This document shows, in pieces, positions 37,820 to 59,654 of a DNA stretch of 64,000 nucleotides. Source of the DNA: Antennarius striatus (taxonomy: Eukaryota; Chordata; Actinopteri; Lophiiformes; Antennariidae); the NCBI RefSeq assembly GCF_040054535.1, contig NC_090782.1, positions 24,416,501-24,480,500 on the forward strand, written 5' to 3'. The notes beneath the pieces are model-generated. The model had not been told where the DNA came from. It did not search any database and worked only from the letters and a program-made list of their open reading frames with translations. A program made the position numbers and the translations under genes. Numbering within the stretch: the first letter of the stretch is position 1; each line of letters begins with the position of its first letter.

Positions 37820-38731
37820 GTAAAAACTCTCTTTTCTCCGGTAAACCCGGTCAACCGGTTCGACCGACCGTGAAGCTCCGGTAGAAACTCGTTCACGGAA
37901 TAAAATCAAGTGTAACGGAGTTTTGTGAGATCCGGTGTTAGTTTGATGGGATCGATCCGGATTTGATTAAAAAGTTAAAAAATTTTTTTAAAAAAACACG
38001 TGAACGCGTTTAAGACTAACTTTAAAGCTGATTTAAAGCTGAGGTGACGTCACCGGGACTTTTGATTTGATCGCGTTTAAACCCGAACGAATCCGGATCG
38101 TTTGATTGATTGAAAACGTGTGAACGGTGGGAACGAGTCGGTTTCAACGTTTAAAACGTTTTTAAATCTGCTGTCGGGGTTTATTTTTATTCTTATTTCA
38201 TGCAAACGTATTTAACAATCAAGCTGGTCTCGGATCAGGTTAACGGACTAATAAAGAACCGAACCGAACCGAAGCTGAGAATCGATTCGATCGAAGAGGT
38301 CAGTGAATATTTCATCTCCGATGACGTCATCACCAGAAAGACTCACTGAAATGCATTGAAGGGTCACTTTTGATGTTTTCAGGACGTTTGATCTCCATAA
38401 TCAGGTTTTAAAGTGGAACTGAATCGGTTCGTGACCCGATCAGATTTTGGTAAACCGGTTTATTCGGACTAACAGATTTGGCTGAGGTGATCCGGTTTCG
38501 GGACGGATGTTTGGTTTTTTTCTGTCATAAAAGTTGGATTCAGACTTAAATGAAACCGTTTTGTTCCCTCAAAGTTCTGAATCCGCTGAGAGTCTCCATC
38601 CGCCTCCAGGACCATGCCCCCCCCCAGCAGCAGGACCGTCTCTGCCCCTCTTCAGGGCGACCACCTGACATGAAGGCTGAAGTTTGAGGACGCAGCGCCC
38701 CCTGCTGGACCCCCCTTTGCACCTGCGGGTC

Positions 38732-39847
38732 ATGGCCGAGTCCAGCTACTCCGACCTGATCGCCAAACACTACAACTACACCGGAAAGTTCCGCAAGACG
38801 GAGCAGGACTCTGGTCTGAAGGCCGACTCGGTGGTCTTCATCATCGTGTGCTGCTTCATCATCCTGGAAAACATCCTGGTCCTCACCACCATCTGGAGGA
38901 CCAAGAAGTTTCACAAGCCCATGTACTACTTCATTGGGAACCTGGCGCTGTCCGATCTGCTGGCGGGCGTGGTCTACACCGCCAACATCCTGCTGTCGGG
39001 CGCCAACACCTACAAGCTGACGCCCACGCAATGGTTCTTCAGGGAGGGCAGCATGTTTGTGGCGCTGGCGGCGTCCGTCTTCAGCCTGCTGGCCATCGCC
39101 ATCGAGCGCCACCTCACCATGCTGAAGATGAAGCTGCACAACAACGGCAACACCTTCCGCGTCTTCCTGCTGATCAGCACAGTGTGGATGATCGCGGCGG
39201 CGCTGGGCGGTCTGCCGGTGATGGGCTGGAACTGCATCCAGAGCATGACCCGCTGCTCCACCGTGTTGCCCCTCTACCACAAGACCTACATCCTGTTCTG
39301 CACCACCGTCTTCAGTATCATCCTCATGGCCATCGTCGTGCTCTACGCCCGCATCTACGCCCTGGTGCGCACCCGCAGCCGCAAGCTCATCTTTCGCAAG
39401 GTCTCCAACGGACGCAGCAACGCCGGCGCCAACATCAAGAGTTCCGAGAAGTCCATGGCTCTGCTGAAGACTGTCATCATCGTCCTGAGCTGCTTCATCG
39501 CCTGCTGGGCGCCGCTCTTCATCCTCCTCCTGCTGGACGCCGCCTGCGAGACACTGAGCTGCCCCATCCTCTACAAGGCGGAGTGGTTCCTGGCGCTGGC
39601 TGTGCTCAACTCCGCCATGAACCCGCTCATCTACACACTGACCAGCAACGAGATGCGCCGGGCCTTCCTGAAGACGCTGCTCTGCTGCACCGCCTGTGTC
39701 CGGCCCAAGTTCACCGGGCCCATCATGGGGGCGGAGTTCAGCCGCAGCAAGTCAGATAACTCCTCCCACCCCAACAAGGAGGAGACCGAGTATTCGCCAA
39801 GGGAGACGAGGGCGGCGTCTTCAGGGAACATCGCTTCATCATCCTAA
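38732..39847 (+). CDS. s1pr1: Sphingosine-1-phosphate receptor 1, 371 aa, intronless coding region
   Basis: Class A G-protein-coupled receptor of the plasma membrane; binds sphingosine-1-phosphate and signals mainly through Gi in vascular and lymphocyte trafficking. The start ATG (GGTCATGG context) gives [20 protein letters not shown], with an N-glycosylation site NYT at the position known in the family. Seven hydrophobic segments follow, the first near residues 30-52 ([16 protein letters not shown]). The lipid-headgroup pair Arg-Glu is present in WFFREGSMF at the start of helix 3. The DRY-equivalent is ERH, where human has ERY. CWAP is in helix 6 and NPLIY in helix 7, with a cysteine cluster LLCCTAC after it for palmitoylation. 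The tail [11 protein letters not shown] and the ending SSGNIASSS closely resemble human. Length is near human (382). Intact. Confidence 0.98.
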
Positions 39848-42420: not shown

Positions 42421-43863
42421 ATGGACCTGATCCTGGTCTTCATGCTGCCCCTCTGCTGTGAGTCTGAACCCATCCATCAGAAATCTGTTTAGACGCTTCT
42501 CCATTTTTAAAGTGGTGAAACACAAAATCTCAAACATCATGTGGGAGGAGTTCAGAACAGAGTTTTTATCATTTAGTGGAGAACAACAAAACGTGATCAG
42601 CTGACTTTTTGTTTGTCTGTGATTGATCGACAGGGTGGACAGCAGCGGCCCGGCCAATGTGGTCTGGTGAGTTAAATGAGGAACAGTCATCAAGAAGTAT
42701 CCTACTAAAACTCTAGATGAAGTCTTTTCAAGATGATGTGTTCAATCTAGATGATGTGTTCTCTCTAGATTACATCTTGTCTAGATATGTTCTCTCTAAA
42801 TTAGGTGTTCTCTCTAGATTGCATCTTCTCTAGATATGTTCTCTTTATTTGTTGTCTCTAGATTGCATCTTCTCTAGATGACGTGTTCTCTCTAGATGAC
42901 TTTTCTCTAGTCAACATGTTCTGTCTGCAGAGAAACCCCGGATCATTATCGACAGTAGTGACATCCAGGACGGGGAGGCGGTGGTGGTTGTCTGTACCCT
43001 CCCCATCGACTACAGAGGGGGGGAATGCCGCCTGTACAGGGACGGCTCTCAGACCCCCTTCAGGGTGACGGGGACCACCCACTTCCTGTGTCGGTTCCAC
43101 CTGACCTCCAGGCAGCTGCTGGGGACACGCCCAGTGGGCAGCCGGGTCTACCTAAGGTGCGACTACCACCTCCAGCAGTACACGTCAGCGCTCAGCGATG
43201 TGAGTGGCGTGACCGTGTGGGGTGAGTGGATTTAGACACTGCCCCCTCTGACCTTCAACTTGAGCCGTTAGCTTCCTTGTTCTGTCCTGACCGCTAGTGG
43301 TCTCTCCTCCAGGAAGTAGACCCAGCCCCACGTTATCCGTCGGCAATCGCTTTGTCTCCCCTGATGACAGCGTGGAGGTCACCTGCTCGCTGCCGGTCGG
43401 CTCCGCCTTCAGCTGTCGCTTCTACAGAGGTGAGATCCGGTTGGCCGAGGGCTCCTGCAGCAGGAACCTGACGGGGGAGCAGCTCACCGTTTGGGAGAAG
43501 AAAACCGTCCTGCTTCCGGTCAACCTGACCTGCAGGTACGACCCAGAGGAACATCTCAGCATCCGCTCGGAGCCCAGCAACCACAAGATGCTGTTCGTGG
43601 TCGGTGAGGAACCAATCACCATCTGGACCCCTCCCCCCATCATCATCAATGGGTAATTCTTGACTCTTCGTGTCTGGGGTTGGTTTTCAGACTGGACTCA
43701 GGTCTCCTCCTCAGGCCGCTGGGACGTGCTGGCGGATGATGATCAGATGGAGGCCTTTAGAAACGGGATCTGGGTGTTCGTTGGGGCTGGAGATCGGAGG
43801 GTCACCATCCAACCGACCAACCACCGACCGGCGCCCAACGAGACCTGCAGCACCCAACTGTGA
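42421..43863 (+). CDS. Secreted protein with two four-cysteine Ig-like domains, 274 aa
   Basis: Not recognised as a named gene. Exons: 42,421-42,457; 42,634-42,666; 42,931-43,221; 43,313-43,603; 43,691-43,863. All are GT-AG and all joins are phase 1, as is usual for Ig-superfamily genes (825 nt). A leader MDLILVFMLPLCC is followed by a small 11-codon exon. Two 97-codon exons each encode one C2-like domain of the same plan: VVVVCTLP...GECRLYRDG...HFLCRF...VYLRCDY, and VEVTCSLP...FSCRFYRG...GSCSRN...VNLTCRY. Each domain has four cysteines at matching positions. The last exon adds a 57-residue tail ending APNETCSTQL without a membrane segment, so the product looks secreted. N-glycosylation sites NLT (twice) and NET are present. 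It may be a soluble leukocyte-receptor relative. The alternative is a membrane gene whose last exon is missed. Confidence 0.7.
42733..42910. repeat. Degenerate TCTCTCTAGAT minisatellite in intron 2 of the Ig gene
   Basis: About eight diverged units of TTCTCTCTAGATGATGTG type. Several contain TCTCTAG, a run resembling a splice acceptor, upstream of the real exon 3 acceptor CTGTCTGCAG at 42,930. Confidence 0.75.
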
Positions 43864-45091: not shown

Positions 45092-47295
45092 CTTTAAAGA
45101 GGACAAACTCAGTTCAAACAGGTTCATGAACATCGGTGTCTCTTTTACCCCCGGGTTCAGCTGAGGAGGAAACTGGGGGAAGAACGGAATGCCGTGATTG
45201 GTCGGTTTCTCCGCGTCTTTCTTCTTCTCTTGACTGGGGTTCTCTTTGTCCTGCAAACAGAAGCGACAGATTTAAAGGTTCACGACCGGAACCAACACTG
45301 CAACACAAATTAACGGGTCACATGATGATGATGTCATCAGTGCTGGTCTTGCGTGGAGGTGGATCTTCGTGCAGCGGTAGACTGAGATCTCACCATGGGG
45401 GGGCTCTGGTGCACCCCTCTCCTCCTCTCTCTTCCTTGCTCGCCGTGGTTCTCACCTCTGCTCCTCCTCCCGTCGGCGGCGGCACCGCTGGTCGCCACGG
45501 ACTTCCATCTGTGGTCCTGCCGGACCATTGGGGAGGGGTTAAAGATCAACACAGCATCACTGGACAGACCGTGCAGTCGGGTCCAGGTCCGGGTCTCTAC
45601 CTTGGGCCTTGTGGCTCTGCTGTTGCCATGGAGCTCGCTGGGGCTCAGGAGGCTGCTGACATCATGTTCCTCCATGTTGTTGTAAATGTCGAAGCGAACG
45701 CCGCAGCGTTGACCTTCGACCCACAGGACCACGGCCGGATAGACCAGACCGTCCTCTGAGTAAACCGCCCGGCAGCGACATCCTGGCCTCCACTCCTGAA
45801 AGCACAACGAGACGATGACAGAGACGAGGTGGCGACTCGCGCTGATGGTCGCCGGCTGGCGCGTGAACGTCACCTGAGAGCTCTCAGCCGGCGTTTTGAG
45901 GACACTCAGCTCCACCTCCTCCTCGTTGCCGTAGTCATGGAAACGGACGCGGCAGTGATCTCCCTCCACCGACACCACCTTAGCCGGATACAGCTTGCCG
46001 TCCTCTGCCCACACGGCTACACATTCGGCGCCTTCCTCCCACTGGGGGGGGCAGACTCGTTCAGAGACGGGGGGCCGTCACCGGGTCAAAGCCCTACCTG
46101 AACCCCGGTAGGTCGTCACCTCCGGTTCGGTGCGGACGAACTCCAGAGCAGGTGGGGAGACGTCCTGTTGCTCTGTCGGTTCCAGCTTCTCTTTGTCGTC
46201 TTCCTCCTCTGACTCCGCCCATGTCAACAGGCTGAAGTCCTGTAAACACAAACAAAACAAGCAAACACACAAACATCACAACACACAACGACTTAATGGG
46301 ATTACCGGCCAGGAAATGACTGCTAACTGGTCTGTGCTTTTCAAAAAGCGCATTACTCGGGCGGCAAAGGGGATGAAAAATTAGATGATGACCTTGAGAA
46401 AACTAAGTCAAGGTCAAATTTCAAGTTCTGTACACTCAGAAACCGAATAAAATAGAAAGATCTTTGACCAATGCACGTAGGTCAGGGTAAAATTTCGAAT
46501 TCAGGGATGTTGAAGTCTGTCAGTGCTTTGTTTTTAGTTATGTTTTACTATCATGAAGTTTTGATATTTTAATGGTGATATATTTGATTATTTTAAGACA
46601 AACTTGTTGACATGTTTGTTCTTTCTACAATGTCTGACGTGCGATGTGTGTTTTATGCTGAAAAATGTGTTTTTTTTAAAAAGGTCTTGTGTACAAATTA
46701 ATTTAGAAAACTGTGTCATTCATTCATTTTCATTCATTCATTCTACAGAAATATCAGATCATTTCGTTTTTGCAATAATTCTCTGATAGTGTGATATTAT
46801 TTTAGGGCCACATTAAGAGAGCTCGTAAAAAAAAAACAGGCGATTAGAAAAATAATTAGCAAAACTAACACAAAAAAATACGGGACGTGACGTTTTTACA
46901 AGAATTTTGCGTCAGAAATGACGTAATTTTAACCTTTGTGTGGTAACATTTCAGTTTATTTTTTGTATTTTCAGCATAAATAATTTATTTTTACAAACCT
47001 CTGTTATTTCCAGTGTTTTGTGTAAAGTTTCCACCAGTGAAGTTTCCTCCTCTTCGTTTTCCGCGGATTCCTGCGAACAGAAACTGTTAGCTAGCAGAAG
47101 GCTAACAGAAAACAGCCGCCAAGTGACGGGTGGCTAACCACTTGTTCAAAAGGTGGTTTCCCGGTAATTTTACGTTTTATAAGTGAATATCAACATTAAA
47201 ATAAAAAATCTTATAATTAATAATAAAAATAATAATAATACATAATAAACACGTACCGGCTCCGTGGAAACGTGGAAGTCCGTCTCCTCCGTCAT
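44757..47295 (-). CDS. SMN-family protein with two tandem Tudor domains, 282 aa
   Basis: Exons (minus): 47,257-47,295; 46,999-47,070; 46,120-46,239; 45,874-46,041; 45,601-45,795; 45,149-45,250; 44,901-45,017; 44,757-44,792. All joins are phase 0 and GT-AG; 849 nt. Residues about 14-37 hold EEETSLVETLHKTLEI, loosely like the SMN Gemin2-binding helix. Tudor 1 (about 78-128) has CVAVWAEDGKLYPAKV...HDYGNEEEV. Tudor 2 (about 134-184) has CRAVYSEDGLVYPAVV...DIYNNMEEHDVSSLL. The aromatic-cage positions read W/Y/F/Y/N and Y/Y/F/Y/N. Proline-rich PFFPQFPPQLNPG and PFMPLPPPL follow, then the YG box LWYICGFHTGSYM. The splice falls right after SYM, as after YYM in SMN. SMN assembles Sm cores on snRNAs; a methyl-arginine reader role here is inference. 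Known SMN has one Tudor domain and a WDDTALIKAYDKAV helix, so this is a divergent paralogue. Human SMN is 294 aa. Confidence 0.85.
45024..45091. repeat. (CA)n microsatellite at the SMN-like exon 7 acceptor
   Basis: About 34 CA units. In the transcript it reads (TG)n followed by TCTCCAG, the acceptor of the exon at 44,901-45,017 that carries the YG box. Confidence 0.98.
45456..45516 (-). other. Possible 61-nt frame-breaking cassette exon of the SMN-like gene
   Basis: Bounded by a good acceptor (CCGGCAG|GAC with an upstream CCCCTCCCC tract) and a good donor (AGAG|GTGAGA). At 61 nt it shifts frame, and inclusion would bring a stop in the YG-box exon. One of its frames reads GSPWRPAVPPPTGGG, much like the SAPWNSFLPPPPP region of SMN exon 4. 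It may be a decayed ancestral exon or a regulated poison exon. The main model skips it. Confidence 0.4.
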
Positions 47296-49502: not shown

Positions 49503-52500
49503 TTATTTATAGGCTTTCTTGTTGCAGATGTTGGAATGCAGATTCTTGTTTTTGATGCGTTCGGGTGCAGCGGGAACTTTCTGTTCTGTTATCATCTGGT
49601 GGCGTGTTGGCTGATACTCACAGGTTGTCAGGTGCAGGGCGCCGCAGACGAGGAGCATCATCGCTGGAATGCCAGAGAGGGGCGAGGCGGCGTCGGTGGG
49701 AGGGGGGCAGGGGGCTTCCTGCCGCTTGGGCTGCTGGGAGGCTTCAGCGCTCTTGTCTTTACACTTCTGACTGCAAAACAAAGAGGACGATTGTAACAAA
49801 GATACACTCATTTTGTGCATCCAACTGGTAGAAGAAAAAAAAACTTTATTTAAAAAATTTTTTTTTTAAACTTTATTTTTCTCTTTATGAGGATCTGATC
49901 GTTCAAATCAGAAATAAATAAACTCTGTGACCTCCTCTCTGACCCGGCTGGCGTTCTATCTGATAACGGCGTGCCGGACCGGGTGGGCGTGGCCAACTCA
50001 CAGCTGTTTGTGCAGGTACTGCTGTCCCGACTCGCAGGCTTTGGTTTGGCTCTGCGCCGCCGTCATGTGACTCTCGGCGGCGGCCTTCAGGCTGAAGCAG
50101 GAGGAGGTCTGATGGAGCGCCTGGGTCATGTTCTCCTGCAGGGACTCGATGTGATCTGAGCACACAGACAAGGACAGACGGGAATCACGCGTCAGTTCAA
50201 GGTCAAATTGAGCTCAAATCTGTTTCTTTCTTTTAAACTTTCAGACCAAACATCCCATTGTTCCTCTACCTCAGGTGCCTCACACTTCAGCAGATGTAAT
50301 GACTCGTTTTGACTCACTTGTTCCACGCAGACCTGCCCTCATTAACCCCCCCCCCCGCCTGATGTTTACCCGCCGTCGTCGCCGCCCGTTCGCACAATGC
50401 TCCCCTCATATCTGCGGCATCCACCGCTTCCCTCCGATTGTTCGGCGCAGGAAGTCGCCTTTTATCGAGGCGTGTCTTCCATCAGGCAGCCGCTCCTACC
50501 GGAGAAGACTTCCCAATCTGAGACAAAAGCTCGTCTCCGATTCCACAAGGAGACGGAAAACATCCCAGCGGGCCTCGAAACGTATTCAAAAAAACCCCCA
50601 ACATTTTCAGCTCATCTTGAACCGTTAAGCATCTCAGCTGCTCCCGGGGTCAGCTGACACGTCAAGTTGGGGTTGCGATGGCCGAGCGGGAGCTGCTAGC
50701 ATCAGCGTAGCGCCGTGACATCGTCACAGGGAAGCCCACATGCCACGGCGCTGACGGCGTCCTGCTGCCGGGCAGCGAACACAAACACGGCTACTGTAGT
50801 ACGACAGTTTCCATTCCCCACACAGGAACCTGCACCCGTTCCTACCTTCCTTTCCTCTCGTCGTTCCTTTTCTTTTTTTTTTGTTTTTTATCTTTTCTCA
50901 CCTTTATTTCCTGCTGATTTTTCCTCTTTCCTTCATTTTCACTCATGTTTCTTACTTTTCTACTTCTGCTCTCTTGAAACGTTCTCTTTCTTTACGCGTC
51001 TTCTCTTTTTAGTCCTCCTTCTTGGATTAAAAAAATACGTTTGTCAGAGTTTCCATCGTTTCCTCCACCCTGGACTGAATTTGACGACTGAAACATTTTA
51101 AAGAGAATCCTTCTTATATTTTTCAGTTTACAACTTTTTCTCTCGGAGCAGAAAGGCTCTCCTGTGTTTTTTTAAGCCAGCCAATCCTGGATGTTTATTT
51201 ACTATGACTCACAGGTCGTCATGGTAACAGAGGGGGGAAAATGCAGCTAAGAATGCCGCCGGTGGCTCGCTGAGAAAGTCTCCTTTCATGGCAGTGATGG
51301 GGTTTTTCCTACCTTCCTGCAGGCTGAGCTGATGCGTGAGGTTCGCCTCCTTCTGGCGCAGCAGCTCCACGTCCTCCTGCAGGACGCTGATGTTCCCGTT
51401 CAGGACGACCTGCAGGATGAAACAAACACACCCCAGGAGGAAGCATCCTGTTAATGAGAGAGTGATGGGACACGCCAACACGAGAAGAGTTTACACTCGA
51501 TTGGAATAACGGCTGACTGTAAAACCACTAAACATTTAGCATTTAGCTTCTGAACAAAGTTGAACAAAGTTCCTGCTGCAACAGGAAACCAACCTGCTGT
51601 ACAGGAAACCAACCTGCTGTACAGGAAACCAACCTGTTGTACAGGAAACCAACCTGTTGCAACAGGAAACCAACCTGCTGTACAGGAAACCAACCTGCTG
51701 TACAGGAAACCAACCTGTTGTACAGGAAACCAACCTGTTGCAACAGGAAACCAACCTGCTGTACAGGAAACCAACCTGCTGCAACAGGAAACCAACCTGT
51801 TGTACAGGAAACCAACCTGCTGCAACAGGAAACCAACCTGCTGTACAGGAAACCAACCTGCTGTACAGGAAACCAACCTGTTGTACAGGAAACCAACCTG
51901 TTGTACAGGAAACCAACCTGCTATACAGGAAACCAACCTGTTGCAACAGGAAACCAACCTGCTGTACAGGAAACCAACCTGCTGTACAGGAAACCAACCT
52001 GCTGCAACAGGAAACCAACCTGCTGTACAGGAAACCAACCTGCTGTACAGGAAACCAACCTGCTATACAGGAAACCAACCTGCTGCAACAGGAAACCAAC
52101 CTGCTATACAGGAAACCAACCTGTTGTACAGGAAACCAACCTGCTGCAACAGGAAACCAACCTGCTGTACAGGAAACCAACCTACACAGACCATCAGAGA
52201 TCCTGAAGACGTTTTTGCAAGGCCTAAACTGGCCTAAACCCAGCGACACCCGTGGGCTAACATGTGGTTTGCGATCTGGTTTGGGTCGGGCCGGGCCGGG
52301 CGGTGCCAGCCTGTCAGGGTGGAGCTGCTGATGGAAAGCAGCGGCGCTCCATCTGTGAACTTGACGGCTTTTAGAAACATTCCTTTGTCTGAACGCAGCG
52401 GCTAAAATTAGAGCCGCTCTTTAAACAGAGTTAAAGGAGCCTCCGAACAAACGCCTGCTAGCAGAACCACATGAGCTAACGGCTCCAGAACCGAGGGAAC

Positions 52501-55290
52501 CAGGAGGGCATCAGGACCACATCAGGACCGCGTCAGGACCGCATCAGAACTACCTCCAACCCTTCTGATTAAGGAGCCGTTGATTGATCAACACCAGTGT
52601 CCTGAAGGTCCAGTTCTCCTAGAGAAACCTTTACCTGCTCTACACCTGATCCACATCCAGATCCAGTTTCTGGTTCCTGAGGAATCTGATACCGTTCCTC
52701 CAGCTCTGGAACGTTCCTGCTTCTCCTCCTCCAGATCCACCAGAGGGTTTCTCAGGTTTCCAGTCAGATGAGGCCTCTAGAATGATCCAGGACTTCTTCT
52801 GGAACCGGGTCTTGGTGGACTCTTGATGTGTTCTTGTACTATCTCCTGATCCTTGATGGGATCCACCTGACCCGTTTTTTAGGGTACCAGGAAGCAAAGC
52901 TGACTCAGAACCCCTGCCCACATCAGGAGGGGGTTCACATCAGGACGTACCACTGATCCAGAGACCTCAGAAGGTCCAGTTTGGTTTCATAGCTCCACAG
53001 AACCTTGTGGGCTCTGATCCAGATGGTTCTGAACTACTGGTTCTTCTGGATCAGCAGTGGGGAACATCTGAACCCTGATGGAGCTCCAGACCAGGATGGA
53101 CTCTGCTGAGACCTTCTAACACCGGTTTGATCTACAAAACACAAGAAGTGGACACCCACCAACCCACAATATCACACAACACTTTGAAATATCACAGGTA
53201 GCTCATGAGTTTCACAGATTAGAGCCCCCCCCCCGCCCTCACTGTGTGGCGTGGAGGGGGTTAAAGCCTGAGGTCAGGTGGTTTCAATCCTGGACGTGTA
53301 AAAGCAGGTGGGAACAGTTAGAGCTCAAATATGAAGCTTTATTCTGCAGGAATGCAGCAGCTGTCAGATGAAACGAGTTCAGAGGGAAAAGACGTTCCTG
53401 ATTCATTCAAACACGTCGTTTCTTCTCTGTCTGAACAACTGATAGAAGAAAAAACATCTAAAAACATCTAAAAACATCTAAAAACATCTAAACACAAAAA
53501 AACAAAATCAATAAAACCCCTAAACGCAGAAAAAAACACCCGCTTCAGCTGACGTGACGGAGATCCAGATCCAGATGTGGACGACCCTACAGGTAGATGA
53601 GGTGAACCAGGTTCAAGAAGGTGGGGTGGGGGGTGTGTGTGGGGGTGCATTCCATTCAGTTTGTCGAAACAGAAGCCGGCCTCCATTACAAGCACATTTT
53701 CCAGATAGATTTTTTTTTTCAGGATTTATCAGAGGAATAATTCGATGTGTTTCAGACGCGGTGACCTCTAACCGTCAGTTAGAGGTCATCTGAAGGGCGC
53801 TTGTCAGAATGTGTTCCCGTCACGACTCTGGAGCTGCTTTTCTGGAGGAACTCCAGATTTTGAGAATCCCAGAGTCGCTTTTTAACGTTTACTTTGGGCT
53901 CTAAACGTGACGTTTGGGGTTATTTCTCACTTCTGGAAGTGAAGGCGTCTGGGTAAAACACGGCGGGAGGAGGAGGAGGAGGAGGAGGAGGAGGAGGAGG
54001 AGGAGGAGGAGTGGAGCAGAGGTGAAGAGCAGTTGGAATGAGTCAGGACGAACCGTCAAAGAGGAGAAGGAAGGAAGGGAGGGGGACATACAAGGGCAAA
54101 CACTCACTTTTTCCAACCGACTCCAATGAAATCCTGAAAGCTACCAAAGCCTCTCGTGTGAAACGCTCCCGTTTTCAGGGAGGGAAAAACGATTGGTCTC
54201 GTTATTGGAGGGAAAATAAAAGTTTCCCGAAATGGAAACGGTTCCTGAAGAGGAGGGAGGGAGGAAGAGGAGAATCCCTCCCCCTGTCGGGTTCCTGTAT
54301 GAAGAAATGTTCACTTTCTCTTCTGCAGAAACAAAACTGTGAAATGTTTGTTTGCTAGAAGCTAACCGGGTCCAGGCTCTGTTGATTCTCGGGAAATAAT
54401 CTCTGTCAACTTTTACCCACAATCCTCCACTGGGAGCAGAAGTTCTACCCTCTGCTGGTTCTGGATGTTTATCGAAAGGTCGTTGCAGATCAGGAAGCCG
54501 GCCATCGCAAGATTTTATCTGCTAACTTTAGAAAAATAACGCGATGACATCACCGTCATGAGATCTAGATCATGTGGGTTAAAGTTCTATTCTGGATCAG
54601 GTGATCCAGAATAGAAAGCCCTACTGTGAGGATTCAGACTGACCTGGGATCAGATCGGTGTGGAGTTTAATTCTACAGATCCTCAAGGAAACCATCATCA
54701 GTGATATTTAGATTTTCTAGAATAACTGTCTGACCAATAGGATCCAGATTCCAGGGATGGAGGAGTCACATGACGAGACTCAGCAAATCATGGGACTTTA
54801 GGAGCCAATATCATCAACAGATCCCTGAGGACGCAGTTCTCCTGAAGCGAGACGGCGTTTAGGAGCTACACGGAAATCAAGTCTAGCTTCTGGAAGAGTT
54901 TTCCAGAAGCAGGATGAACATTCAGGAGAACCCGAACGAACACCAAGCTGGGGACAAACTCACCGCCTCCTGCCGACACTCCTCCAGCGTGGCGTTGGTG
55001 GCGCTGAGGCGCCCCAGCAGCATCAGGATCTGGGCTCTTTGGCGCTCTCGCTCCTCCCTCCCCTCCTCCACCATCTCCTCCAGAGCCACCTTGTTCTTCT
55101 TGAACACCACCTTGGCCCCCTCCAGCTTCTCCGTGGCCTCCTGCAGCTCCGCCCGGCACTGGGACGAGCTCTTCAGGTCCGGAGATGTGGCCCAAACCAC
55201 GATGACGATGAGCGAGATGATGGACCAGAGCGCCAGCAGGGCGATCACCACGTTCTTGGCCTTCTCGGAGGATCTGGAGGCGGCAGCCAT
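49503..55290 (-). CDS. Type II membrane coiled-coil protein, tetherin-like plan, ~281 aa
   Basis: Exons (minus): 54,964-55,290; 51,313-51,409; 50,002-50,155; 49,503-49,770, phases 0, 1 and 2, all GT-AG. The start MAAASRSSEKAKNVVIALLA gives a short basic cytosolic tail and one membrane segment (about 13-34). The ectodomain is predicted coiled coil from about 45 to 160 (EEMVEEGREERERQRAQILM, LQEDVELLRQKEANLTHQL). It has cysteines near 45 and 104 and more in exons 3-4, and N-glycosylation sites NAT, NIS, NLT, NMT. Near the end lies a Pro-rich stretch, then a hydrophobic SGIPAMMLLVCGALHL. That hydrophobic tail resembles the GPI signal of BST2/tetherin. However, the frame runs on 36 polar residues to a stop at 49,503 that overlaps AATAAA, unless the donor ACCT|GTGAGT (49,616-49,622) is used. 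BST2 orthology is not shown; PLVAP- or GOLM1-type proteins are alternatives. Confidence 0.7.
51575..52185. repeat. 20/21-bp minisatellite in intron 1 of the coiled-coil gene
   Basis: About 30 copies of TACAGGAAACCAACCTGCTG alternating with a CAACAGGAAACC variant. Because 20/21-bp units keep long frames open on both strands, it yields repetitive open frames up to 237 codons that are not genes. Confidence 0.97.
52190..54960 (-). other. Remainder of intron 1 of the coiled-coil gene
   Basis: No coding feature recognised. It includes a (GGA)n run at about 53,968-54,012 and GAACC/TCTGGATC-rich low-order repeats at about 52,560-53,110. The short open frames (for example 52,640-52,921) lack domains. 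Confidence 0.45.
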
Positions 55291-56082: not shown

Positions 56083-56429
56083 CTGCAGAGGATAAACCCT
56101 CACATTAAAGGATGAGTGTTTGTCATACTGCCCCCTGGTGACACATCACACACACTACACATACACGCCACTGGAAAAAATCATAGGTGTAAAGCTGGTT
56201 GACGTAGAACAAACATCAAGTTTTCCTTTTATATTTACATTTATTCAAGTTCTAAAATTTTATTTTTATTCTCCTAAACTTTGGAAGTCGCTGCTGTTTG
56301 ATTATAGAATGATAAGAAATCTGATAAATAAATAAAATCACAATATTTTTAACTTTTATGTTTTACGCTTTCATTTTAACTCTGCTGTTATTTACATTTA
56401 TAAATTTGCCATAGATGATTTAGTTAACA

Positions 56430-56435
56430 TGTGTG

Positions 56436-56480
<45 letters not shown>
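56430..56480. repeat. (GT)n microsatellite upstream of the V-domain gene
   Basis: About 25 GT units with one TT interruption, 50 bp before the TATA box. Confidence 0.97.
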
Positions 56481-56482
<2 letters not shown>

Positions 56483-56529
56483 ATGTGCCCAGCTGTGTAT
56501 CTGTTAGGAAGCGTTTTTGAACCGTTGGA

Positions 56530-56537
56530 TATAAAAA
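56530..56537 (+). promoter_or_regulatory. TATA box of the V-domain gene
   Basis: TATAAAAA 42 bp before the start codon, which predicts a very short 5' UTR of about 10-15 bases. Confidence 0.7.
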
Positions 56538-56571
56538 CAGCAGCAGCAACAGTTTCCTCCATCGCTCCACG

Positions 56572-57471
56572 ATGGCGTCTGCGTTGGTGTGTCTGATGCT
56601 GCTCTCTGTTAGCGGTGAGTTCCAACAGTATTTGCCTTCATCAATAACAATATAGATCATTCATCAATAAAGATATTATAGCTATTAATACAATGAGGAA
56701 CCATTTGCAACAGTTGAAGAGATTTGAATGCTGAAAATGTCAAATTAAAGGTTCTTTTAGAAAGAATTGAAGATTCTGAAGGAGATTAAACATCTAAAGT
56801 CTCAGTTTATTCATATTTAAAGCTAAAAAATAAACTAGATCAGCAGAGAATTAGCCAGGAAATACCTTTATAATTAATCATTTCAGACTGTCAGGAAAAA
56901 CGCATCTTAAATAAATTTTTTTAAATATTCGCTTGTATCTCAAAAGCTTTGTTTGTTTCATTCCTAAAAATATTAAGTATTTGTTGTAAATTAAGACTAA
57001 AAACAGATTCCACAGGCGGTGGTTGGTTTGACCCCTCTGACCCCTCTGTGATGGGCGGTGCTCTCATTGGCTGTCTGTGCCTGACACCACTCCTGATTCG
57101 TCAATAAGTGCAGGTGTGTCTGCGGTTTGCGTCTAGGGGCCACGGTCCCACCTGCGTCTACTGTGAAGGTGAGGGTGGGGGAGGACGCCACCCTGCAGTG
57201 CCCCCTGCTGGACGCCAACAGCCCCTCCTCCAGGGCGGACCCCCCCACCATCAGCTGGTACAGGGTGGCCCCCGGACAGAGTCCGCAGCTGCTCCTGTCC
57301 ATCAGGTCCACCGACGTGAGGCCCGGCCCTGGGGGGGAGGCTGGTAGGTTCACCGGTGGGCCTGACGGGTCGATGCGACTCAGCGCATCCCGTAGGAGTG
57401 ACTCAGCAGTTTATTACTGCAGCATCACCGAAGGACGCCAACAGGAGGAGATGGGGGATGATGGGACGTGA
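56572..57471 (+). CDS. Secreted Ig V-domain protein with acidic tail (VpreB-like architecture)
   Basis: Exons 56,572-56,614 and 57,137-57,471, phase 1, GT-AG, 126 aa. The leader MASALVCLMLLSVSG is followed by one V-set domain: VKVRVGEDATLQCPLLDA (first Cys), TISWYRVAPGQSPQLLL (Trp of strand C), GRFTGGPDGSMRL, and SDSAVYYCSI (second Cys). Instead of a J segment the frame ends EGRQQEEMGDDGT-stop. No recombination-signal heptamer follows the YYC codons, so this is not a rearranging V segment. There is no membrane segment. A V domain with a short acidic non-J tail is the plan of mammalian VPREB. NITR, TCR-like V genes and other germline V proteins are alternatives. ATTAAA at 57,617-57,622 may be the poly(A) signal. 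The stop overlaps a weak donor AC|GTGATG that could join to the J-like exon at 59,006. Confidence 0.75.
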
Positions 57472-58882
57472 TGCTGGTTTCAGATGGATCCAATGGAGCG
57501 TCTGCAGATCCGTTTGTTTCTTCAGCCTCCTTCAGATTTTAGTGCTTATCTGATGTTTAAGTCACAAAAACAGCTGTTCACTAAAGTAAATGCAGTGAAT
57601 TCCCCTTCATTGGCTCATTAAACTACCTTGTTCTTGACTGTGATTAATCAAATTCTTCAGAACTATTTTTTTAAAATTATTATTCTTGTTATTTCTTTAA
57701 TATATTAAATATTATTTATCTCGTATTCAGTTTTTTTTTTTTAATTAACAGCGTGAATGCATCACTATATTTATCTCTAAACTGATCTGTTTACAACCAG
57801 ACTGCTGTTTGTCAGAAACATGAAAACTTTAGGAACTTTATTGTTTTGTTTTGAAATATATTTTTACTTAGAATTGGACCTGAAATACATAAAACTAAAC
57901 TAAAGATGTTTCCTGTTTGTGTTGTAATAAAACCACAGACAGCTAACAGACAAACAGCCTGCTAACAGTCAGGCACCACACAGAGCTAACAGACAGACAG
58001 TTGACATATTTACAACTTGTTCTATGTTTTACTGGGTATCAAATACCGTTCTATCACCTTGTTCTCCTGAGCCACATCTTGGGTTCGCGTTTGATCGATG
58101 TCATAGCCTGTCTGATTGTGTTGAAAAGACTGCAATACCCTGTTTGACCACACGGATTAAGCGGGATTAAACACTTACAATCCAGGGGGCGCTGTTTTCA
58201 CCTGTCACTCAATTCACCTTTTTTTTCTTACTTCACACGAAGAAGATAAACGAGTTAATGACAACACAAAGAATAATTTAAGTTAATTTTTTAAAAGAGA
58301 CAAATAAAACCTGATCTGTACTTTTATAAATGCTTATCTCTGATCAAACTATGAATTTAAATTAAGAAAATACCTACAGTGCAAGAAAATTCAGTGATTG
58401 TCATAACCAAAGTAAACATTTAACGTGTAAATAAGTAGAATAAACAAATACTGAAGCCAAAATGGTTCAGTTCAATTTCAATTTATTTTAGGTTACAGTT
58501 TTAAATATTTAGTTATTCAGATGATAAGAAAAGACACCTTTAAAAAACACAGTTAGCGGCTCCTCCAACAGTTTCATCTCATCTATTTTTTTTTTTTAAT
58601 GTCTGTCTTTTGTCGTCTCGGTTATTAGTTGCAGTAACCACAGGTGATCCTTCCTTCAAGTATGTTTTTGACAGTTTGACATGGACACAACATCATCAGT
58701 GAGAGAACTTCCTGTTTGTCTGTCCTTCTCTAACTGACTGGAGCGGCGGTTGATGGGATCCCACAGCAGTTGGTTTCTGCTGCTGCTGTTCCGCTCCAAC
58801 AGTTTCTGCTTCACTCAAAGTCTCCTGGCTTCAGCTGTCGGGAACAGAAACACCCAGGAGGTCTGCAAGAGACATCTTCAGG
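57472..58882. other. Spacer between the V-domain and J-C genes
   Basis: A/T-rich, with no V exon, repeat or other gene recognised. If the V-J-C splice is used this is its intron; otherwise it holds the V gene 3' UTR and the J-C gene promoter. An ETS-like ACTTCCTGTT lies near 58,706. Confidence 0.5.
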
Positions 58883-59535
58883 ATGACTGCAGCGCTGACC
58901 TTCGTCCTCCTGCTGTGGTGAGACTCAGGAGAATGAAGCGCTCCTCTGGCGGTCCGTCTGACCTTCTGTTCATGGTTTCTTTCTGGTCTGTGTCCCCCGC
59001 TGTAGTTTCTGGGGTATCTGGTCTCAGCCCACCCCCTTCTCCGTGGTCTTCAGTGCTGGAACTCAGCTGATTGTTGAAGAAGGCAACTTGGATCATCTTC
59101 ATCACCATGGAAACAAGACAAGAGGTAAACTTCAGTCCAACATTCAAAAAGAACCCGGAGACCGAGCTGGTCTCTGAGTCTTTGTGGCTCTTATTTTTGA
59201 TTGATGTGATTTTTATTTCCATGTTTTCAGATTCTGGTCCATCTATCCAGACTCTATCGTCCGTCCCCTTCAGTCAGGGTCCCGGATCCCCTCCGGTGCT
59301 GGTCTGCATCCTCACCGAATTAACCTCCCCTAGGCAGGATGTCCTGTGGTGGATTGACGACACAGTGGTCACATCACCAGACGTGGCGTTGTGGAGGTCG
59401 GAGGGAGGTGGAGCCTACAGCGCCACATCAGCGTGGAAGGTTTCAGCAGCCAACTGGAGGACAAGGTCCAGGTACTGGTGTGGGACCATCCAGCATGGAC
59501 AGGTGTTCAGGCAGAGTGTCTGCCCAGGAGACTGA
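58883..59535 (+). CDS. V-less Ig chain: leader, J-like segment, C1 domain (lambda5-like), 152 aa
   Basis: Exons 58,883-58,917; 59,006-59,124; 59,231-59,535, phases 2 and 1, GT-AG, 459 nt. The leader MTAALTFVLLLCFWGIWS crosses the first splice. Next comes a J-like stretch, PFSVVFSAGTQLIVEE, resembling light-chain J sequence such as VFGGGTQLTVL but with FSAG for FGxG. A linker follows, with a glycosylation site NKT. The C1 domain has PPVLVCILTEL (Cys), DVLWWIDDTVV (Trp), YSATSAWKVSAANWRTRSRY, YWCGTIQHG (Cys), and ends FRQSVCPGD with a terminal cysteine like Ig light chains. No V exon or membrane segment lies inside. Leader-J-C is the layout of lambda5 (IGLL1). pTalpha is another V-less chain but has a membrane segment. 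The J exon runs past the usual J donor site to a later one. AATAAA lies at 59,655-59,660. Confidence 0.72.
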
Positions 59536-59654
59536 ATCAAGGCTTGAGGTTTGGGTCAGGGTGAAATCCAACATCAACTTAAAGTTCTCATCTGTTGAGG
59601 TGACTTTTAGATCATCATGTTTGAAATTAGATCTGAAGAATCACATTTGGAAGA

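Follow-up and report, generated by a model that had tools for sequence, protein, structure and literature searches.

The two genes and their layout

The 64,000-nucleotide stretch of the Antennarius striatus genome analyzed here (GCF_040054535.1, NC_090782.1:24,416,501-24,480,500, forward strand), hereafter the window, carries two adjacent Ig-domain genes on one strand. The upstream gene (56572-57471), here called the V gene, encodes a leader and a single V domain with a short acidic tail; the downstream gene (58883-59535), the J-C gene, encodes a leader, a J-like strand and a C1 domain. An earlier note, made from the letters alone, had read the two as a possible fish surrogate light chain, comparable to mammalian VpreB and lambda5. 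Coordinates are window positions, and the exon limits of both genes were judged by eye from the sequence.

56530..56536 (+): TATA-like box, lying 42 bp upstream of the start codon of the V gene
56572..56614 (+): first exon of the V gene, with the start codon and the larger part of the signal peptide; splice donor score 5.2
57137..57471 (+): V gene exon 2, V-set domain with cysteine pair C36/C109 and stop codon; no recombination signal behind it
57421..57468 (+): tail of the V protein, 16 residues, acidic, non-J, 5 acidic and 1 basic
58883..58917 (+): first exon of the J-C gene, with the start codon and the beginning of the signal peptide
59006..59124 (+): J-C gene exon 2, end of the signal peptide and about six further residues, J-like strand, and a stretch of 16 residues that closes the exon and carries a glycosylation sequon at N48
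59043..59075 (+): J-like G strand, VVFSAGTQLIV
59231..59535 (+): J-C gene exon 3, C1 domain (Pfam match about 59284-59484; cysteine pair C77/C135) and stop codon
59521..59523 (+): C149, the terminal cysteine, followed by three residues

The V gene has two exons, an open frame of 125 amino acids and a GT-AG intron. Its product matches the Pfam V-set profile with E 1.4e-13, the match ending at profile position 99 of 109, and after the last cysteine there follow only the 16 tail residues and the stop. The germline single-V protein with an acidic, non-J tail described in the earlier note is therefore confirmed. The J-C gene begins 1.4 kb downstream of the V stop and comprises three exons with GT-AG introns and an open frame of 152 amino acids. 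Its protein contains no V domain and matches C1-set with E 1.1e-4 and 22.9 bits, barely over the cut-off of 21. In the Protein Data Bank (PDB), the best match resting on one C domain that passes by itself is lambda5 (2h32_B, 26.3 and 26.9 bits), followed by antibody light chains. C149 has no evident partner within the chain, and the species' own immunoglobulin light chain (IgL) C domain ends alike, with a terminal cysteine and then three residues. The other half of the earlier description, a V-less leader-J-C1 chain on the same strand with a light-chain-like terminal cysteine, thus also holds. Beyond the signal peptide, which for the J-C protein was judged by eye, neither protein has an anchoring hydrophobic stretch.

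The J-like strand resembles that of the species' own IgL J, which reads VVFGQGTKLIV. The pattern [FW]..GT.L.[VIL] occurs once among the 83,996 six-frame residues of window 22001-64000, outside the satellite, and that occurrence is in J-C exon 2. Could the two genes yield one fused V-J-C chain by alternative splicing? A donor, GTGATG, lies in the V tail at 57468 and would join J-C exon 2 in frame. Its score is -2.3, as against 2.7 to 5.2 for the three donors in use. Because this donor, the only one scored in the tail, is weak, a fused chain is unlikely and we take the products to be two separate chains.

Recombination signals and relation to the light-chain locus

Are these genes able to rearrange? 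A scan for recombination signal sequences (RSSs; heptamer starting CAC, spacer of 12 or 23, at most four mismatches overall) found no site in 56400-59600. The same scan of 9.9 kb of the species' own IgL locus returned three perfect RSSs, two 12-RSSs behind V and one 23-RSS before J, and two further sites with four mismatches. Since the scan detects RSSs where they are present, we conclude that the pair lacks them; a rearranging IgL gene is rejected on the same grounds. With five mismatches allowed, five RSS-like sites appear in the region of the pair, none of them where the V exon ends or the J exon begins.

The pair lies on the assembly sequence labeled C7, and the single IgL locus detected lies on C16 (13.97-14.02 Mb), so linkage of the pair to the IgL locus was rejected. 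The locus contains seven C exons, identical across the 106 residues of the query; its V exons carry a 12-RSS and its J a 23-RSS, the kappa arrangement. An RSS heptamer flanks all 12 of the IgL V exons found by similarity and is perfect in 11.

Genome similarity searches revealed no second copy of either gene. The V protein has 53 non-self matches, of which 12 are in the IgL locus, 5 in the immunoglobulin heavy chain (IgH) locus, 29 in a cluster on C18 and 7 elsewhere; the best 11 of the 53 all fall in the IgL locus, and the IgH ones come next. Of the seven matches of the J-C protein, two are its own exons and no other falls below E 0.18. A search with the C1-set profile listed at least 90 matches in the genome, 48 exons of which were read; among the matches listed, C7 has none over the cut-off besides that of the pair.

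Three further observations were made in these searches. The C18 cluster (C18:1153409-1266963), with its 29 matching V-type exons, is TCR-alpha-like by look (TCR, T-cell receptor), and an RSS heptamer lies downstream in the five whose flanks were seen. The IgH locus (C16:10153231-10161297) contains about seven copies of a block of three C1-type exons, equal in score (7, 7 and 6 matches); this is presumably the IgD exon repeat of teleosts. One C1-like exon (C3:23035896-23036093), highly divergent, is the only C3 match among the C1-set matches listed and stands away from the Ig, TCR and major histocompatibility complex clusters seen.

Possible completion of the V domain by the J strand

The V protein stops short of strand G, and the J-C protein begins, after its leader, with that strand. 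Together the two chains hold every strand of one light chain, cut at complementarity-determining region 3 (CDR3): V without strand G on one, strand G, C1 and terminal cysteine on the other. Joining the J-like strand to the V exon, with the acidic tail shortened to six residues, raised the V-set score from 52.0 to 56.6 bits; the match, which had ended at profile position 99, now reached 108 of 109. The V exon joined to the species' own IgL J scored 59.1 bits, while one reversed and one shuffled strand, the two controls, gave 52.5 and 51.0. For scale, an own IgL V rises from 53.9 bits alone to 62.2 with its own J. By this profile measure, the J strand of the J-C chain may be able to complete the V domain.

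Modeled alone, the V exon reached a mean pLDDT (predicted local distance difference test) of 47. By eye, the positions of a light-chain variable domain (VL) that face the heavy-chain one (VH) are largely kept in the V protein (Tyr36, Pro44, Leu46 and Tyr87, in standard numbering), but Gln38 is replaced by valine. The J phenylalanine that faces VH sits, again by eye, on the J-C protein.

Phylogeny and similarity scores

The earlier note had proposed phylogeny of the V and C1 domains as a check on its reading. The C1 tree was built from 29 of the 48 exons read, together with the query and 5 human rows. Of the 19 exons not used, 6 were IgL C exons identical in sequence to the seventh, 11 were matches that were weak or truncated (L070, L071 and L073-L081), and the other two were L011 and L028. 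For the V tree, the query and 10 human rows were combined with V exons from the IgL locus (5 of 12), the IgH locus (2 of 5) and the C18 cluster (2 of 29). When the query was held with IGLL1, the C1 tree gave p 0.508, and no other grouping was rejected either; the V tree with the query placed with VpreB3 gave p 0.279. In the free V tree, the query joins TCR-alpha V without support, and its branches are long in both trees. The phylogeny thus neither refutes nor confirms the reading of the note, giving no placement of either domain and no rejection of alternatives. As to pairwise similarity, the C1 domain is at least as near to TCR-beta C as to IgL C within the Antennarius striatus genome, and against human sequences the V protein scores 88 with VPREB3 and 85 with VPREB1.

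Comparison with known pairs

Has such a pair been seen before? Within the window's own genome, the comparison was made by sequence, and with zebrafish and medaka through published descriptions. The earlier note held that lambda5 is known from mammals only, which is outdated: a zebrafish candidate had been raised by 2022 (PMC9365674) and was disputed in that year (PMC9614664). Nor is a fish counterpart unrecognized, as the note supposed, since the adjacent, co-oriented zebrafish pair had already been pointed out (PMC9365674, PMC9614664). Rubin et al., in 2022, considered the proposal that zebrafish sid1 is orthologous to VPREB1 and offered, as a speculation, that si:ch211-1a19.2 is homologous to lambda5; for both labels they cited earlier papers (PMC9365674). 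The second study confirmed that the two genes are adjacent and co-oriented and argued that sid1 is VpreB3-like, that its partner should not be equated with IGLL1 and that a pre-B phenotype is lacking in zebrafish; it also reported that sid1 retrieves mainly TCR chains in Eutheria (PMC9614664). Both zebrafish genes share a single expression module with dntt in rag1/2+ B cells, and two light-chain genes went undetected in those cells (PMC9365674). Medaka sid1, found by TBLASTN with zebrafish sid1, adjoins si:ch211-1a19.3, as sid1 does in zebrafish too, and was seen together with dntt only in rag1-high clusters, that is, B precursors; its authors point out that they did not study when igh and igl rearrange (PMC11759298). 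In the available open-access literature, we found a J-C partner of sid1 described for no species but zebrafish, and the string 1a19.2 is absent from the available text of the open-access medaka papers searched. In addition, igic1s1 has been termed a predicted IGLL1 homologue (PMC6365377), so that the IGLL1 label has been applied to more than one fish gene.

The genes described here match the published description of zebrafish sid1 and si:ch211-1a19.2 as two adjacent Ig-domain genes in the same orientation. Because order, orientation and domain layout agree, we regard the Antennarius striatus pair as very probably the orthologous counterpart of the zebrafish one, and most likely as a further member of the proposed teleost pair, not a first discovery. 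As in medaka, whose J-C partner goes unmentioned in the available part of PMC11759298, the V gene would lie beside a counterpart of si:ch211-1a19.3. The earlier note had named absence from all related fish as telling against its reading; published work on zebrafish and medaka suggests otherwise (PMC9614664, PMC11759298), and the lymphoid expression the note looked for has been reported for both species (PMC9365674, PMC11759298).

The likeness to eutherian VpreB1 and lambda5 (IGLL1) is one of layout: two non-rearranging genes in the same orientation, a V with an acidic tail and a leader-J-C chain with a terminal cysteine. The human tails after the last cysteine are 8 residues in VpreB3 and 30 in VpreB1, so that the tail of 16 here is about half that of VPREB1. 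Unlike lambda5, the J-C protein has no long basic N-terminal region, only about six residues, none basic, separating signal peptide from J strand, and it has extra residues between J and C. The pair, unlike the eutherian one, is not in or near the IgL locus. With VpreB3, an endoplasmic reticulum (ER) partner of Ig chains, the V protein shares the V-only layout and a short tail, but the tail here is longer and acidic and a J-C neighbor is present. By the motif criteria given in PMC9614664, the GPRC of lambda5 and the VFPGQ of VpreB3 are both absent. The sterlet IgL sigma locus is also atypical, and a VpreB/lambda5-like role has been speculated for it; however, its description in the available text is that of an IgL isotype locus rather than of a split pair (PMC5985310).

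Proposed function and origin of the pair

In architecture the pair has the layout of a surrogate light chain: an RSS-free V without a J strand and an RSS-free leader-J-C chain. Whether it also functions as one we put at even chances. If it does, the V and J-C chains would be co-expressed in rag-positive B precursors, and the J strand of the J-C protein would pair with and complete the V domain of the V protein. C149 would then bond to the first constant domain (CH1) of a newly made mu chain. Once assembled, the surrogate chain would enable this mu chain to fold, to exit the ER and to signal while no true light chain is yet present, acting as a checkpoint. Such work would probably be similar to that of the mammalian surrogate light chain, while orthology to mammalian VpreB/lambda5 is not supported. 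The anatomy speaks strongly for the split-light-chain reading, and the interpretation in the earlier note is supported in part.

Several points weigh against this reading. The trees place neither the V nor the C1 domain, leaving the phylogeny silent, and some similarity scores lean toward TCR chains. Within 1 kb upstream of either gene there is neither an octamer nor an EBF core; CAGSTG E-boxes number 3 and 3 upstream of the two genes versus 1.2 and 0.6 expected. Moreover, the orthology with the zebrafish pair is judged from gene order, orientation and domain layout.

What else might the two proteins be? The V protein could be a VpreB3-type ER chaperone for nascent Ig chains and the J-C protein a separate partner or free C-domain protein, with no pre-B receptor at the surface. 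Zebrafish sid1 has been placed in the VpreB3 branch (PMC9614664). The tail here is nearer in length to that of human VpreB3 than to that of VpreB1, and the V protein scores marginally higher with VPREB3; yet the VFPGQ motif is missing, and a chaperone role would leave the neighbor's complete J strand and terminal cysteine unexplained. We consider this explanation unlikely, though a serious contender. The pair might instead be a relic: an IgL-cluster V-J-C unit, no longer able to rearrange, now drifting and doing little or nothing. This would suit the resemblance of its V and J to the species' own IgL V and J and the long branches in the trees. Both frames, however, are intact, the splice sites are canonical and a leader exon precedes J; reports also exist of the pair in zebrafish and of sid1 in medaka, where expression is restricted to particular stages (PMC9365674, PMC9614664, PMC11759298). 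A relic is therefore improbable.

The absence of an anchor on either chain would also fit a secreted immune or decoy pair of V and C1 proteins, NITR- or TCR-related and acting outside lymphocyte development. The nearness of the C1 domain to TCR-beta C, the unsupported joining of the V domain to TCR-alpha V and the retrieval of mainly TCR chains in Eutheria by sid1 (PMC9614664) point the same way; against it, the best genome matches of the V protein are IgL V exons and the zebrafish genes are expressed in rag+ B cells (PMC9365674), and we hold a secreted pair to be quite improbable. An invariant C1 chain expressed early in lymphocytes would in principle fit a pTalpha-type role as well. The J-C chain has no transmembrane segment, and pTalpha was rejected for want of this anchor; such a role is hardly credible. 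Taken together, a light chain frozen in the germline, split at CDR3 and acting as a surrogate light chain is the best explanation overall, with about half of our confidence.

Where might such a split light chain have come from? The V-to-J spacing is about 1.5 kb in the pair versus about 1.6 kb in an own IgL unit, and in both V, J and C follow in this order on one strand. As the layout of the pair resembles that of a single own IgL unit, it is plausible that the pair arose from one V-J-C unit of a kappa-type IgL cluster, with loss of the RSSs and gain of a leader before J. More tentatively, and with the balance tilted somewhat against it, the teleost surrogate light chain and pre-B receptor may have arisen independently of eutherian VpreB/lambda5, from a kappa-type V-J-C unit split at CDR3 and kept since the zebrafish split. 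Were this so, the pre-B checkpoint would have arisen at least twice, from different light-chain loci.

Why does a second fish matter? It is disputed in print whether, in fish, a stand-in light chain serves to test each new heavy chain ahead of the real light chain. Intact, adjacent, RSS-free genes in a second fish, with a complete J strand and a light-chain-like terminal cysteine, argue against a one-species accident in zebrafish. The pair supplies exact sequences and, as a second example that is complete and well defined, opens the question of a pre-B stage in fish to testing. If fish do use such a checkpoint, it either arose more than once or far predates eutherian mammals.

Neighboring genes and other features of the window

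Upstream of the V gene and divergent from it lies a further gene, with one exon delimited here and further exons that probably extend to about 50 kb (window 50001-55290, minus strand).

~54950..55290 (-): first exon of the divergent neighbor, short N-terminus, one membrane span, coiled coil by eye

The neighbor has no Pfam match above the cut-off. It is a candidate counterpart of si:ch211-1a19.3: zebrafish sid1 adjoins si:ch211-1a19.3, and the V gene here adjoins this membrane coiled-coil gene. Among the network hubs listed for zebrafish, si:ch211-1a19.3 stands alongside mxa, isg15 and stat1b (PMC7673038).

Elsewhere in the window, an intact single-exon rhodopsin-type receptor (38681-39844, plus strand; 7tm_1, 1.7e-39) resembles sphingosine-1-phosphate receptors. 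Two open stretches at 42900-43653 (plus strand) look by eye like Ig-type ectodomain pieces with cysteine pairs and match no Pfam family at E 0.01. An Rfam search of window 22000-64000 and an NCBIfam search returned no match. One reading frame at 45340-46077 (minus strand) holds two SMN-type Tudor domains (SMN_Tudor 1.2e-18, two stretches). A satellite array occupies window 1-21573 and shows a strong strand asymmetry (skew of G over C about -0.27); its unit measures about 166 bp and contains shorter palindromic blocks of the type GACCCGCxGGTC.
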